The notes under the pieces were generated by a model, which saw nothing but the letters and a program-made list of their open reading frames with translations, searched no databases and was not told where the DNA came from. Source: Gammaproteobacteria bacterium (GTDB lineage Bacteria > Pseudomonadota > Gammaproteobacteria > S012-40). Taken from it: a stretch of 64,000 nucleotides of DNA. Location of the stretch: positions 306,732-370,731 of the forward strand of contig JAOUMY010000003.1 of assembly GCA_029881255.1 (NCBI GenBank), written 5' to 3'. Shown here piece by piece: positions 11,642-18,181 of the stretch (its first letter is position 1; every line of letters starts with the position of its first letter). A program made the translations under genes and the position numbers.

Positions 11642-11814
11642 TTACATCTCAAAAAAACTTTAAAAACAAACTGGTATATAATAATTTTAACTTACTCCAA
11701 TTAACTACCAAGTGGAAGGATTGACTAAACCCTCCCTAACACATAGTATTTTTCAGCTCAGATAATTCAAATAGAACTATCCGTTTCAGTCACCACTGAC
11801 ACTGGAGGGATATA

Positions 11815-12537
11815 TTGAGCTCGGTATACGATTTTATTGAAGAACTCGGCGAATGCTACTCGCTCAAAGAAATTCATGCGGTTTGCACAAAGTTCTGTAA
11901 GTCTATTAATTACGATTATTTTCACTATGGCGCGCAAATCCCGGTTAGTTTTTCGAAACCGGTTTTTGTTTTTGTCAGCGGATATCCGGATCCCTGGTGG
12001 GAACGCTACACCCAAAACAATTATCTCTATGAAGATCCTACCGTCATACATTGCGCTAACCATGTAACGCCATTTTTCTGGCAACAAATGAGCGGCTCTC
12101 GACACAAAGTCATCAACGAGGCGCGTGAATTTGGACTGCACCAAGGCATTAGCGTACCTGTTCATGGCGCAACTGGCGAAAAGGCCATTTTTAGTGTCGC
12201 ATGCGAGCATCAAAGCAAACCCAGCACGAACCTATTCAATGCCGAATTGGGTAGCCTGCTGATATTTGCAAGCTTTGTTCATGAAACCGTGCGCCGGGTT
12301 ATTATTCTGGAAGGATTCGAACAGACCCCAAGACAACTGACTCGCCGAGAAAAAGAATGTTTACTCTGGGCTGCCGAAGGAAAAACCACCTGGGAAACAT
12401 CCCAGATTCTAAATATTGCCGAGAGCACCGTGACCTTTCACCTCAGCAATGCGGTCGGCAAACTCAATGTCGCAAACAAGTCTCAGGCGGTGGCAAGAGC
12501 CGTTGTTGAGAATTTAATCTCACCTTTCTCACTTTAA
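11815..12537 (+). CDS. LuxR-family acyl-homoserine-lactone receptor / transcription factor
   Basis: 240 residues. The N-terminal domain (about 1-165) is an autoinducer-binding fold with the expected aromatic and acidic ligand residues in the YPDPWWERYTQNNYLYEDP region and a later FFWQQ Trp. The C-terminal domain (about 175-235) is a LuxR/FixJ-type helix-turn-helix: LTRREKECLLWAAEGKT, then SQILNIAESTVTFHL. The start is TTG at 11815, chosen because a GGAGG lies 7 bases upstream and the frame is not open much further. It is followed by luxI, 126 bases downstream on the same strand. As a typical LuxR it should bind the cognate AHL and a lux-box operator; a candidate operator lies between the two genes. 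Confidence 0.92.
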   Translation: MSSVYDFIEELGECYSLKEIHAVCTKFCKSINYDYFHYGAQIPVSFSKPVFVFVSGYPDPWWERYTQNNYLYEDPTVIHCANHVTPFFWQQMSGSRHKVINEAREFGLHQGISVPVHGATGEKAIFSVACEHQSKPSTNLFNAELGSLLIFASFVHETVRRVIILEGFEQTPRQLTRREKECLLWAAEGKTTWETSQILNIAESTVTFHLSNAVGKLNVANKSQAVARAVVENLISPFSL

Positions 12538-12553
12538 ACACCTTAGTTTATCT

Positions 12554-12570
12554 CGAGTCCCTCGCACTCG
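12554..12570. promoter_or_regulatory. Candidate lux-box-like inverted repeat upstream of luxI
   Basis: CGAGT and ACTCG arms around a 7-base spacer, about 94 bases before the luxI start. Dyad and position fit a LuxR operator, but the arms are short and differ from the classical lux box. Confidence 0.25.
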
Positions 12571-12663
12571 GACCTGTATTTTCTTGGAGTACCCCCTTTC
12601 GCTTCAATCCGCTTTTATATGTCTTTCTAATAAAACAAAACTTCAGTGTGGGGGACAACACAA

Positions 12664-13260
12664 ATGATCAATATTTCAATACATTTGAAAAACGACGGAC
12701 AAAACAACCAACTTCAGGAAATGTTTCGATTGCGTAATACAGTGTTTAAAGAACGACTGGGATGGGATGTCCAATCCAAAGATGGCTTGGAAATCGATGG
12801 GTTCGACGATCTCAACCCTGTTTACATGATGGCGACAAATTCCTCGAAACAACTGGAAGCGAGCTGGCGCATGCTCCCAACAGATGGCCCCTATATGCTG
12901 GCCAATGTGTTTCCCTTTCTGCTTCGGGGCGAAGAAATACCGCGCTCTCCCGGCATTTGGGAGATCAGCCGCTGGGCAGCGGTATCCTGTCCAAGCAACC
13001 GGCGCGCGCAAGCATACGCCAATGAGTCAACGATAAGTTTAATCAAATACGCATACGACTATGCAGTAGAACACAATATCTCGCACTACATTGTAGTGAC
13101 CAGCGTATCAATGGAAAAGCTGGTACACCGAATCGGTCTACCCGTTCGACGCTTCGGCGACGGAAAAGCTACACGCATAGGAAATGTGCTGTCCGTTGCC
13201 TGCTGGGTAGACATCAACGAACAATTCCACAACGTGGTTTATCCAAGAAAGGCGGCATAG
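12664..13260 (+). CDS. LuxI-family acyl-homoserine-lactone synthase
   Basis: Makes AHL signals from S-adenosylmethionine and acyl-ACP (or acyl-CoA). 198 residues from the ATG at 12664, which follows a GGGGGA ribosome-binding site; a GTG at 12646 lies within that site and is rejected. The conserved LuxI residues are all visible in order: MFRLRNTVFKERLGW (Arg, Phe, Trp), EIDGFDDLNP (the two Asp), EASWRMLPT (Arg), MLANVFPF (Phe), and GIWEISRWAV (Glu and Arg of the active site). The C-terminal region has the VVTSVSMEKLVHRIG acyl-pocket helix. Signal chain length cannot be read from sequence. It is co-directional with luxR and tightly followed (9 bases) by a receiver-like gene. Confidence 0.95.
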   Translation: MINISIHLKNDGQNNQLQEMFRLRNTVFKERLGWDVQSKDGLEIDGFDDLNPVYMMATNSSKQLEASWRMLPTDGPYMLANVFPFLLRGEEIPRSPGIWEISRWAAVSCPSNRRAQAYANESTISLIKYAYDYAVEHNISHYIVVTSVSMEKLVHRIGLPVRRFGDGKATRIGNVLSVACWVDINEQFHNVVYPRKAA

Positions 13261-13269
13261 GAAACTAAC

Positions 13270-13593
13270 ATGAAAATACTATTTGTTGGAGACACTCGTT
13301 CCCATCACTCTTTACGGGAAGTGATTACCGAGCGAAGCAATATCTTTTATCTCATGGACGCAAAAAAGGCTATCCAACAATTCGACCAGCTTGCCAATGG
13401 ATTTGAATGGCTGGTATTCGATAACCGTATCCTACGCGCTTGTGGAACAAATGGGGCTCCCGCGTATCGGGAAGACAATCTGGCAACTCTCCAGGAGCAA
13501 TCTGCTCGCACATCGCATGTCCCCACGCACGCAATCTGGTATGGCTATCACTCACCTGTAAACGACAAAAATCAAAAAGAGCGCAAAGAGTGA
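13270..13593 (+). CDS. Small receiver-like protein of unknown function downstream of luxI
   Basis: 107 residues, not confidently recognised. An AGGA lies just upstream of the ATG. The start MKILFVGDTRSHHSLREVI and the later FEWLVFDNRIL resemble strands beta-1 and beta-3 of a response-regulator receiver: an Asp at the end of beta-1 and another at the phosphoacceptor place. The usual double acidic pair is reduced to Gly-Asp, and the C-terminal part (conserved Thr/Ser and Lys) does not follow the receiver pattern. It lies 9 bases after luxI and overlaps the next gene by 4 bases (GTGA), so the three are very likely co-translated. The degenerate receiver call is an inference. Confidence 0.7.
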   Translation: MKILFVGDTRSHHSLREVITERSNIFYLMDAKKAIQQFDQLANGFEWLVFDNRILRACGTNGAPAYREDNLATLQEQSARTSHVPTHAIWYGYHSPVNDKNQKERKE

Positions 13594-14327
13594 CTGACAA
13601 TACAACCATAGAAACAGAGAACAACGCAGACAACTTAATTCACAGCCGTCGAGCGAAGGGTTTGGCGCACGAAATCAACAATTGTTTTCAAGCGATAAAA
13701 AACAACCTGTTTCTAGCCAATCGCTATTTTCTCCGAAGCGATACCAACAGCGCGGAAAATGAGATCTTTCGCGCGCAATTAAAAAGTGTGCAAATTGATG
13801 AGCTTCTACACAAATTGTGCAACATGTTGAGCACCACATCTGAAAATTTTCAAACCCGAAAAATAAATATTATAAAAGCGATTGAGTCCTCACTATCAGC
13901 AACCATTTGCCATATCAGTGAAGACATTGAGTTTGTAACGGACATCGATACGACAGACACATCTATTCTCGTGCCGATAGGCATGATTGATCGTTTATTG
14001 ACGATAGCCATTGGCAACGCCGTCCACTCCATAGGCAAGCTCGGGCGCATACGCATAAGAGCCAAACTAGCCAAGGTCGACGACCGTTGCTGTTGTTGTC
14101 AGCAGGCCATAATCGGTAAGTGGTTTGTCATCGACATTGAAGATAATTCAAGCGAACAATTAGAGGAAAGCACCATTCCTTTATTGTTCAAGCCGTACTA
14201 TCGCGAAACCGAGATGGGACGTCACACTGCCATGTTCTCTTTGGAGGACATACTTCACCGGGAGGGTGGCCACATCACCCTGTCTTCGGTTGAAGGATGT
14301 ACGGTTTTACGCTTTTACTTCTCCTGA
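13590..14327 (+). CDS. Histidine kinase-like protein with degenerate ATP-binding motifs
   Basis: 245 residues from a GTG at 13590 that overlaps the upstream stop. There is no membrane segment. An H-box-like GLAHEINNCFQ (His about residue 27) heads a dimerisation helix region. An ATPase-like domain follows: an N-box-like AIGNAVHSIG near 138-148, then a CCCC cluster (about 165-170) and a G1-region DIEDNSSEQ where DxGxG is expected. An F-box-like LFKPYY comes next, and a G2 region GRHTAMFS where GTGLGLS is expected. Phosphoacceptor and N-box survive while both glycine-rich ATP-lid motifs are gone, so it is probably a pseudokinase or a phosphotransfer/phosphatase partner. It ends 33 bases before a strong terminator, closing the luxR-luxI cassette. 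Confidence 0.8.
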   Translation: MTDNTTIETENNADNLIHSRRAKGLAHEINNCFQAIKNNLFLANRYFLRSDTNSAENEIFRAQLKSVQIDELLHKLCNMLSTTSENFQTRKINIIKAIESSLSATICHISEDIEFVTDIDTTDTSILVPIGMIDRLLTIAIGNAVHSIGKLGRIRIRAKLAKVDDRCCCCQQAIIGKWFVIDIEDNSSEQLEESTIPLLFKPYYRETEMGRHTAMFSLEDILHREGGHITLSSVEGCTVLRFYFS

Positions 14328-14360
14328 CGGAGGGCCATTTCAGCGTAGTGGCCCCTATAT

Positions 14361-14415
14361 ACTCCTCTTCGTTCAACAAAAGAGTAATCATCTGAACGAA
14401 GAGGAGTCTTTTTTT
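14361..14415 (+). terminator. Rho-independent terminator closing the quorum-sensing cassette
   Basis: A perfect 15-bp stem (14361-14375 with 14393-14407) is followed by C and seven T (to 14415). It lies 33 bases past the kinase-like gene. Confidence 0.95.
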
Positions 14416-14574
14416 GCCCTGCAATCTCCCACATTCGAGATATGTGACAACGCGCCTCCCGGCTAGCTAACTAATTCATAAGCCTAACTGAGTTGTAACG
14501 TTGAAAATCTCCAGCAGGCATTGCAAACTACCTAACTCAAACCAAGCGATTAAAATAGTTTTCTGAGACGAGAT

Positions 14575-15171
14575 ATGTCATCCATACGCATACTTTCACT
14601 AAAGGGTGAAGAAGCACTCTCTTACCTACCGGCATTAGCAAAACTCCGTATCGAAGTCTTCCGCGAATTTCCCTATTTGTATGATGGAAGCATGGCGTAT
14701 GAAGAAAAATATCTGAAGACCTATATACAGTCTCCCGACAGCGTGATAGTCGTTGCCCTTGATGGCGAAGAGGCGATTGGCGCCTCTACCGCACTTCCAC
14801 TGCGCGATGAGACGATAGAATTTCAACAACCGTTTCGTCAGCACGGATACGATATCCCGCAGGTATTTTATCTTGGTGAATCCGTGTTGCGCCGATCATA
14901 TCGCGGCCAGGGTCTGGGGGTGGCGTTTTTCACGGCCCGTGAAGCACACGCCCAAAGCCTTGGTGATTTTCCCATCTACACTTTTTGCGCAGTCGATCGT
15001 CCTGTTGATCATCCTCGACGACCAGCCGATTTCGCGCCGCTCGATGATTTCTGGAATCACCGCGGTTACGTCAAACACCCCGAACTGCATACCTTTTTCA
15101 CCTGGAAAGAGATTGATGAAGACCAGGAATCGAAAAAGAAAATGGTGTTCTGGCTGAAGACGCGTAAATAA
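14575..15171 (+). CDS. GNAT family N-acetyltransferase
   Basis: 198 residues. The acetyl-CoA binding signature RRSYRGQGLGVAFF (about residues 103-116) and the preceding beta-4 strand (YLGESVL) identify the GNAT fold. An N-terminal LAKLRIEVFREFPYLYDG region and a C-terminal FWNHRGYVKHPEL...FTWKEIDE segment match a subfamily of stand-alone bacterial acetyltransferases; the substrate is not predictable. The ATG at 14575 has only a weak AGACGAG upstream. It lies between the terminator of the quorum-sensing cassette and valS, with its own 160-base upstream region, and is probably monocistronic. Confidence 0.88.
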   Translation: MSSIRILSLKGEEALSYLPALAKLRIEVFREFPYLYDGSMAYEEKYLKTYIQSPDSVIVVALDGEEAIGASTALPLRDETIEFQQPFRQHGYDIPQVFYLGESVLRRSYRGQGLGVAFFTAREAHAQSLGDFPIYTFCAVDRPVDHPRRPADFAPLDDFWNHRGYVKHPELHTFFTWKEIDEDQESKKKMVFWLKTRK

Positions 15172-15311
15172 GTCTCGCGTACCGGGCATCCGCGGTTATC
15201 ACCGAAAAATAGATCCACCCCGCCCTCAATGTCTTTGCCTTCTTTTCCACAAGGTTTCCACCCGAGCCCGAAAAGTGACGCGGCAAAAGAGCATGTCCGG
15301 ACAAACTGGGC

Positions 15312-15317
15312 TATAAT
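15312..15317 (+). promoter_or_regulatory. valS: TATAAT -10 element, likely valS promoter
   Basis: A consensus -10 hexamer sits 45 bases before the valS ATG. No good -35 hexamer is seen at 16-18 bases, so the call rests on the -10 and its position. Confidence 0.35.
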
Positions 15318-15361
15318 CGCGGCTATTTTCTGTATACAAAAGAACACTGTTGAAGGATTCC

Positions 15362-18181
15362 ATGGATAAAACCTACGACCCCCAAGCCATAGAACAAAAG
15401 TGGTACAAGACCTGGGAGGATAAAGGCTATTTCGAGCCCAAAGCCAATGCAGCGAATACTGATCACTATTGCATTATGATTCCACCACCTAATGTGACCG
15501 GCAGCCTGCACATGGGACATGGTTTCAATAATACGGTGATGGATACGCTGACCCGCTATAACCGCATGCTGGGTAAGAAAACCCTGTGGCAGCCGGGCAC
15601 CGATCACGCCGGGATCGCAACCCAAATGGTCGTCGAGCGTCAACTCGCGGCACAGAAAAAAACCCGCCACGACCTGGGACGGGAAGACTTCATCAAGCGC
15701 GTATGGGAATGGAAAGGCGAATCCGGCGGCAATATTACCCGTCAGCTACGCCGCCTCGGTTCTTCACTGGACTGGGCGCATGAACGGTTCACCATGGACG
15801 ATGGTTTGTCGGAAGCGGTCAAAGAAGTCTTCGTACGTCTTCACCAAGAAGGTCTGATTTATCGCGGCAAACGCCTGGTCAATTGGGACCCGGTGCTGCA
15901 TACGGCGGTTTCTGATCTCGAAGTATTATCGGAAGAGGAAAACGGATTTCTGTGGCACATGAAATATCCTCTCGTCGATGGTGAAGGGTATTTAGTCGTT
16001 GCCACCACCCGGCCAGAGACCATGCTGGGTGATGCGGCAGTGGCCGTTCACCCCGGCGACGATCGCTACAAGCATTTGATTGGCCAGAAGGTGAAACTGC
16101 CATTTACCGACCGCCTCATTCCTATCATTGCCGACGACTATGTCGATCCCGAATTCGGGACCGGTTGTGTAAAAATCACCCCGGCCCATGACTTTAATGA
16201 CTATCAGGTATGGAATCGCCATCGCGATGAATCCGATATCGCGAGCTTACCCAATGGCGGTCTGATCAATATTTTTACCAAGGACGCCGCCATTATCGGT
16301 GCGACAGACGAACACGGTGATCTCATCCCGCAAGACTTTCATGGCCTGGATCGCTATGAGGCGCGTAAGAAAATTGTCGCCTCGCTAGACGCGCAAAACC
16401 TGCTCGAAAAAACTGACGATCACAAACTCATGGTCCCCAGAGGGGATCGTTCCGGCGCAGTAATTGAGCCCTTCTTAACCGATCAATGGTACGTCAAGGC
16501 TGGACCTCTCGCCGAACCGGCGATCAAGGCGGTTGAAGACGGCAGAATTAAATTTATCCCGGACAACTGGAAGAACACCTATTTCGAATGGATGCGCAAT
16601 ATCGAAGACTGGTGTATTTCACGCCAGATCTGGTGGGGCCATCGCATCCCCGCCTGGTATGACGAAAACGGTGATGTCTTTGTCGGTCGTTCCGAAGAGG
16701 AAGTCCGCAGCAAGCACAAACTTGGTGCGGAAGTCGCGCTGCGTCAGGACGAAGACGTCCTCGACACCTGGTTCTCTTCGGCGCTATGGCCGTTCTCGAC
16801 CCTCGGCTGGCCCGAAAACACCGATAGACTCAAAGCGTTTTATCCAACGCAAGTTCTGGTCACCGGTTTCGACATCATCTTCTTCTGGGTCGCACGCATG
16901 ATCATGATGGGCATGAAATTCATGGACGACGTTCCTTTTCACGAGGTCTACATCCACGGTCTGGTGCGCGACGCGCAGGGCCAGAAGATGTCAAAGTCCA
17001 AAGGCAACGTCCTTGACCCGATTGATTTGATTGACGGAATTGAGCTCGATGCCTTATTGCAAAAACGCACCAGCGGCATGATGCAACCCCATCTGCGCGA
17101 AAAAATCGAAAAGCAAACGCGCAAAGAATTCCCCGATGGCATACCTGCATTCGGCACAGATGCCTTACGCTTTACCTTTGCCGCACTCGCCTCTACCGGA
17201 CGCGATGTGAATTTCGATCTCAATCGCGTCGATGGCTACCGCAATTTTTGCAACAAAATATGGAACGCGGCACGCTACGTGCTCATGAATACGGAAGGTC
17301 AGGACTGTGGTGAATCCGGCGGTGCGCTCGAATTTTCACTTGCTGACCGCTGGATTAGCTCGGCGTTTCAGAAGGCCGCGAAACAGGTAAATGAGTCCTT
17401 GAGTCAATACCGCTTTGACCATGCGGCCCAGGCGATATACGAATTTATCTGGCATGAGTATTGTGACTGGTATCTGGAATTATCCAAGCCAGTCTTGCAA
17501 AGTGAACAGAGTCGCGAAGCGGAAAAACGCGGTACTCGTGCGACTCTGGTAAGAGTTCTTGATCAGACATTGCGCCTGGCGCATCCGATTATGCCTTTTA
17601 TCACTGAGGAAATCTGGCAACGCGTAGCACCACTTGCCGGGGTGGATAGTGAAACGATTATGCTGCAGTCTTATCCTCAATATGATAAAAGCTTTGTAGA
17701 CGAGACGGCAGAAACCGAAATGGATTGGGTGAAGAGCTTCATCCTCGGTGTACGTAAAATACGAAGCGGCATGGATATCGCACCGGGAAAACCATTGCCG
17801 GTATTGTTGCAAAACATGTCTGCGCAGGATGAGAAATTCATCAGCAGCAACAGTCTGTTTGTACAACGTCTAGCCAAACTGGAAAGCATTAACCCGGTAG
17901 GCGAAGACGCCCCGGAGTCGGCAACGGCGCTAGTGGGCAATATGAAGGTCTTAATCCCCTTGGCTGGCCTGATCGACAAGGATGCGGAAACGGCGCGTCT
18001 GAACAAGGAAATAGAAAAACTTGTGAAGAACATCGCGGGGATAGAAGGTAAACTGGGTAATAAGAATTTTGTTGATCGTGCGCCCGAGGACGTGGTCAAC
18101 AAGGAGCGTACCCGACTGGCCGAATTGCAGGCATCTATGGACAGCCTCAGAGAACAGCTGGCCAAGATCGAAAAGCTATAG
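15362..18181 (+). CDS. valS: Valyl-tRNA synthetase
   Basis: Class I aminoacyl-tRNA synthetase that charges tRNA-Val and edits threonyl-tRNA. 939 residues. The HIGH box appears as HMGHG in [10 protein letters not shown] (near residue 45) and the KMSKS loop as [12 protein letters not shown] (near residue 541). Between them lies the CP1 editing domain with [10 protein letters not shown], and [13 protein letters not shown] precedes KMSKS. The last 60 residues are the ValS coiled coil ([11 protein letters not shown]...LRE). The ATG at 15362 is preferred over the in-frame TTG at 15350 because AAGGA lies 5 bases before it. Size is normal for the family. Confidence 0.97.

Follow-up and report, generated by a model that had tools for sequence, protein, structure and literature searches.

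The window analyzed here, a stretch of 64,000 nucleotides from a contig of a Gammaproteobacteria bacterium (JAOUMY010000003.1), carries directly behind an AHL synthase gene a small open reading frame, orf3, whose product, judged from sequence comparison, is a member of a recurrent luxI-specific protein family that is apparently undescribed. The reading that we favor, and to which we give about an even chance, is that the window holds a divergent copy of a recurrent cassette, luxR followed by luxI-orf3 and a variable signalling gene, in which ORF3 serves as a contact adaptor that acts without phosphotransfer.

The core of this cassette appears, from its domains and conserved residues, to be an ordinary LuxR/LuxI pair. 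The luxR gene (11815–12537, forward strand) starts with TTG, has GGAGGG upstream and encodes an AHL-binding LuxR-family regulator of 240 aa, in which Pfam recognizes both the AHL-binding and the HTH domain (Autoind_bind, PF03472, E = 1.5e-33; GerE, PF00196, E = 1e-18); the protein is 38–48% identical to the luxR products of most related loci. The luxI gene (12664–13260, forward strand), with an ATG at 12664 and a stop at 13260, encodes an AHL synthase of 198 aa (Autoind_synth, PF00765, E = 2.9e-34), and the Pfam matches of both proteins are far over the cut-offs. In alignment, LuxI retains R24, F28, W34, D45, D48, R69, E100, S102 and R103, all of which are invariant among ten related synthases. 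Alignment and Pfam thus agree with the first-pass annotation, made from the sequence alone, which had noted intact key residues in this pair. The closest luxI genes, at 55% identity, are found in Thiogranum and Thiohalobacter MAGs, where orf3 follows at +7 or +10. As a separate observation, 59 of 84 LuxI proteins end in Ala-Ala, including that of the window (13252–13260), even without gene overlap, and this end may be a C-terminal degradation signal.

Downstream, orf3 (13270–13593, forward strand, 107 aa) starts 9 bases past the luxI stop with AGGA ahead of its start, and orf4 (13590–14327, forward strand, 245 aa) starts with GTG and overlaps orf3 by 4 bases. An intrinsic terminator (14361–14415, forward strand) closes the array with a perfect 15-bp stem (14361–14375/14393–14407), a 17-nt loop and a U-run, CTTTTTTT. 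The folding energy of this region is -37.9 kcal/mol, compared with -18.6 in shuffles (z -6.3), and the terminator was missed by a simple terminator scan because the scan accepts loops only up to 8. Open reading frame coordinates, Pfam and folding against shuffles all place the four genes and the terminator where they had been noted before. Their earlier description as a single four-gene unit is less well favored. A degenerate lux-box-like site, ACCTGTATTTTCTTGGAGTA (12572–12591, forward strand), lies ~90 bp upstream of luxI, in the same place as in relatives, and a clear lux box (consensus ACCTGTAAGATCTTACAGTT) is present upstream of luxI in 41 of the 43 ORF3-bearing loci described below. Scored with a matrix derived from the lux boxes of related loci (29 sites), the window site reaches 9.3 bits, compared with 19.5–31 for true boxes, and ranks 6 of ~128,000 window positions, while shuffling of the intergenic stretch gave a score as high in 16 of 5000 cases. 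A repeat finder reported no inverted repeats in the luxR-luxI gap, and this weak site was found through comparison with relatives. As luxI probably has its own promoter bearing the lux-box-like site, an operon luxI-orf3-orf4, with luxR separate and upstream, is likelier than one transcript of all four genes; the operon is likely to be induced by LuxR-AHL.

With regard to the genomic setting, the order pepA-holC-o306-valS is uninterrupted in three relatives (G001, G009 and G012), whereas in the window the quorum-sensing cassette and a GNAT gene (11642–15365) sit between o306 and valS, at a junction that is empty in those relatives. Compared with its neighbors, the inserted cassette is unremarkable in base composition, which gives no sign of recent foreign origin.

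The recurrence of orf3 was followed in genome contigs, where a scan with a LuxI alignment yielded 80 named luxI loci; the same scan with a single LuxI protein found nothing. In 43 of these 80 related loci, an ORF3 homologue directly follows luxI, so that the search for relatives of the 13270–13593 product beside luxI, suggested by the first-pass annotation, found the gene to be recurrent there. Its hosts include Thiogranum, Thiohalobacter, Ectothiorhodospiraceae, Nitrosospira and MAGs labelled Desulfuromonadales. The luxI and orf3 genes overlap by 4 bases (ATGA) in 35 of the 43 loci, and the others are mostly spaced by +7 to +10, as is the window (+9, like L093). Among 369 gammaproteobacterial genomes, the ten strongest matches to the family profile all lie at luxI, and below these come partial matches to ordinary receivers; among 398 genomes of the phylum, the sole match below E 1e-11 is the window itself. 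A role of ORF3 as a partner in AHL signalling, which had earlier been argued from gene position, is now also argued by this conservation. In addition, a profile built without the window protein ranks ORF3 first among 420 window open reading frames (28.9 bits, E = 2.5e-8), followed by an ordinary receiver at 12.5 bits. Both main halves of the luxI tree include ORF3 loci, one a mainly betaproteobacterial clade with Nitrosospira and the other a mainly gammaproteobacterial clade, and the median dN/dS of ORF3, 0.08 in Nitrosospira and 0.13 in Thiogranum with dS near saturation, indicates purifying selection. No model in Pfam or NCBIfam describes the family, and neither ORF3 nor LuxI was found on plasmids. 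That ORF3 is a chance open reading frame is ruled out by the profile match and by the conservation and selection seen in relatives.

Several loci carry altered forms of the luxI-orf3 pair. In L071 (4970–5977), a second LuxI is fused in frame to a whole ORF3 domain, and in L078 (3124–3573), which has a shortened luxR alongside, the beginning of luxI runs into the end of orf3 through a deletion. Just the tail region of ORF3 (75 aa) is left after luxI in L072, and a divergent frame in Nitrococcus retains the ORF3 tail. Other luxI lineages have other neighbors: two relatives of the same family (L061 and L062) have another luxI type, which lacks orf3 and adjoins a phosphopantetheinyl transferase-like gene.

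Members of the ORF3 family share an MKILxVG start (M-[KN]-I-L-x-V-G), an FDWhLhD strand with the motif (F/Y)DW and a C-terminal FEYHAP tail. Compared with PDB receivers (KdpE, FleR, RpfC and others), the family profile matches at E 1e-6 across positions 1–85 only, which cover strands 1–4. AlphaFold2 models have the order b-a-b-a-b with pLDDT of ~80–89 in the first half, and a Foldseek search with the model of a Nitrosospira member (L128) retrieved the FleR (5.6e-4) and KdpE (6.4e-4) receivers. The fold assignment rests on the family profile and this Nitrosospira member, because the model of the window ORF3 itself gave no significant Foldseek match. The receiver is cut off after strand 4 and so lacks strand 5 with its conserved Lys; in most members, G replaces one of the two receiver acidic residues; and the phospho-Asp position holds D in only about half of them, with N, E, Q, H, A or P in the others. 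On these sequence features, the family is a pseudo-receiver, a truncated receiver with a conserved C-terminal FEY(H)xAP tail. The earlier label of ORF3 as receiver-like therefore applies to the first ~85 positions of a domain that is truncated. By the profile built without it, the window protein fits the receiver-like N-terminal half of the family, with its start motif and (F/Y)DW strand, and its AlphaFold2 model shares the b-a-b-a-b order. Its phospho-site is occupied by D51, and strand 1 is followed by a single acidic residue; with the same truncation and an Asp that is unconserved in the family, it does not have the full set of receiver features. It is the shortest full member of the family, lacks the Cys hairpin (CGVEWxxxGxLQLxC) found in the second half of many members and has the tail WYGYHSP, with G in place of E relative to FEY(H)xAP; these features suggest that it may be drifting.

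The neighboring ORF4 is a short soluble histidine-kinase-like protein with degenerate G1 and G2 boxes. It matches HATPase_c at E 4e-4, below the Pfam cut-off, and the AtoS model at 1.3e-7. Alignment with related kinases shows that the H box (AHEINN) and N box are kept, as is a CxxC insert ahead of the G1 box that is also seen in the kinase of L107; DNSSEQL replaces DxGxGI at G1 and GRHTAMF replaces GKGTGM at G2. ATP binding has thus probably been lost or is poor, and autophosphorylation is probably no longer possible, as far as can be read from these motifs. The earlier description of ORF4 as histidine kinase-like stands in respect of the HATPase_c similarity, sub-threshold as it is, and has to be qualified in respect of the catalytic motifs. 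Searches of 95 genomes found no close relative of ORF4, only generic kinases at 20–28% identity, and a kinase occupies the position behind ORF3 at only two other loci, L107 and L072, the latter with the tail-only ORF3.

It had been suggested that the two proteins form a two-component-like pair, and in its classical form ORF4 would autophosphorylate and pass the phosphate to ORF3. The phospho-His motif HEINN and the N box of ORF4, and D51 and the acidic residue after strand 1 of ORF3, are what such a pair would retain. However, the G1 and G2 glycines are absent from ORF4; ORF3 has neither strand 5 nor the conserved Lys that belongs to it, and only one residue of the acidic pair; the phospho-Asp is unconserved in the family; and ORF3 homologues usually have no adjoining kinase, their neighbors being EAL/GGDEF genes, a response regulator, kinases or nothing. 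The suggestion is thus not borne out, and we consider phosphotransfer between ORF4 and ORF3 highly improbable. It is less improbable, but still unlikely in our judgement, that ORF4 is a passenger in decay, derived from a kinase and losing its function, and that only luxR-luxI, with or without orf3, is active. The degenerate ATP motifs, the lack of a close relative in 95 genomes and the weak lux box of the window would fit such decay, which is countered by a frame of 245 codons that is intact, coupled to orf3 and followed by a strong terminator, and by C-terminal HATPase features that are still recognizable.

Comparison of the gene that follows ORF3 gives ORF4 a different context. Outside the Nitrosospira clade, a signalling gene comes next in about two thirds of the ORF3 loci; it mostly encodes a protein of the EAL or GGDEF-EAL type, which may also carry PAS or receiver domains, and otherwise a response regulator of the NarL type (L088) or a histidine kinase with PAS (L107). 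Since the gene after ORF3 is variable in relatives, ORF4 of the window stands in a slot of exchangeable signalling genes. Also outside that clade, a following signalling gene was counted in 20 of 30 loci with ORF3 versus 4 of 37 without (p 2e-6), counts that are not independent of kinship, and the kinship-independent pairs are too few to prove a link between ORF3 and the signalling gene. These neighbors bear on another explanation, that ORF3 and the next signalling gene are quorum-regulated outputs without feedback on LuxI or LuxR, with ORF3 as an adaptor for the downstream protein. In 17 loci the gene after ORF3 is of the EAL or GGDEF-EAL type (assigned by Pfam, or from similarity to Pfam-tested proteins), and LuxR control of a GGDEF/EAL gene that lies beside luxI has been shown in Nitrospira (PMC8553950). 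As the whole story, however, this is opposed by about 15 Nitrosospira-type loci and L104/L109, in which ORF3 persists without a signalling gene after it, by the coupling of ORF3 to luxI rather than to the next gene and by the fusion of one ORF3 to LuxI (L071). We therefore regard a purely downstream role as less likely than not.

For the contact adaptor reading, we propose that LuxR-AHL acting at the lux box would induce LuxI and ORF3 together, and that translational coupling would hold the two in step. ORF3 would then act without phosphotransfer, as a contact protein of the pseudo-receiver adaptor type, with LuxI (or LuxR) as its most likely partner and an adjusted signal output as the effect. 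The gene after ORF3 would have been recruited to connect the cassette with another layer of signalling, which in most relatives is c-di-GMP, and the kinase-derived ORF4 of the window would be an allosteric or scaffold partner, or decaying. By analogy with CinS, RsaM and BCAM1871 (PMC3356288, PMC10710839), ORF3 is likeliest to be a contact-acting regulator coupled to LuxI, because of the LuxI fusion, the near-exclusive linkage to luxI and the gene overlap. More tentatively, ORF3 may use its FEYHAP tail to bind LuxI or the LuxI-LuxR pair independently of phosphate, tuning synthesis and coupling it to a recruited signalling enzyme (c-di-GMP phosphodiesterase, kinase or response regulator); if this is true, ORF3 would represent a class of AHL-synthase partner not described before.

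The usual picture of an AHL circuit comprises two genes, and few third genes are known (RsaL, RsaM, CinS and a crotonase-superfamily gene). The window shares with LuxI/LuxR quorum sensing of the R-I tandem type both core proteins with their key residues and, in weak form, a lux-box-like site before luxI, and differs in adding a luxI-coupled pseudo-receiver and a signalling gene. RsaM and RsaL, quorum-sensing repressors encoded between luxI and luxR (PMC10710839, PMC3386692), are likewise small conserved proteins encoded by genes that accompany luxI. RsaM (PF16245) differs from ORF3 in fold and in gene position, and ORF3 gave no match to this Pfam model. Closer in position are CinS (cinI-cinS of R. 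leguminosarum) and BCAM1871 (cepI operon of B. cenocepacia), whose genes lie directly after the AHL synthase gene, are co-transcribed with it and modulate the circuit (PMC3356288). CinS has 67 aa, and BCAM1871 has 254 aa and weak HMG-CoA reductase similarity; unlike ORF3, neither has a described receiver homology. Similarly, the third gene of the Mesorhizobium R1-I1-crotonase circuit lies 8 bp after luxI, is conserved with it and is required for the signal (PMC10470506), but it encodes an enzyme of acyl chain supply, whereas ORF3 is receiver-like. In Nitrospira, a GGDEF/EAL gene adjoining nspI is under lux box control (PMC8553950), which resembles the relatives of the window in placing a c-di-GMP protein, encoded beside luxI, under AHL control and differs in its divergent gene order and in that no orf3 is reported. 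With other pseudo-receivers and truncated receivers, the ORF3 family has in common the receiver fold and the lack of a conserved phospho-Asp, and it is set apart by the missing strand 5, the FEY tail and the tie to luxI. Nothing on the family was found in open papers, although subscription work on Nitrosospira luxI may mention a small gene after luxI; the earlier statement that no described system has this exact composition holds within the open literature searched.

A third protein derived from the receiver fold, found only with luxI in hosts as different as ammonia oxidisers and Gammaproteobacteria of the sulfur cycle, would give AHL signalling a new point of control, and the ORF3 cassettes hint that a connection between quorum sensing and c-di-GMP is built in. 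Two orf3 hosts, Nitrosospira multiformis and Arhodomonas aquaeolei, are culturable, which makes these proposals testable now.

Different genes adjoin luxI in further lineages. A luxI clade comprising L089, L092, L097, L098 and L106 has a second LuxR-family gene downstream instead of orf3, and in MAGs labelled Rhodospirillaceae or Marinimicrobia (L131, L146, L154 and L156–L158) luxI is followed by a gene that, judged by eye, is cytochrome P450-like.
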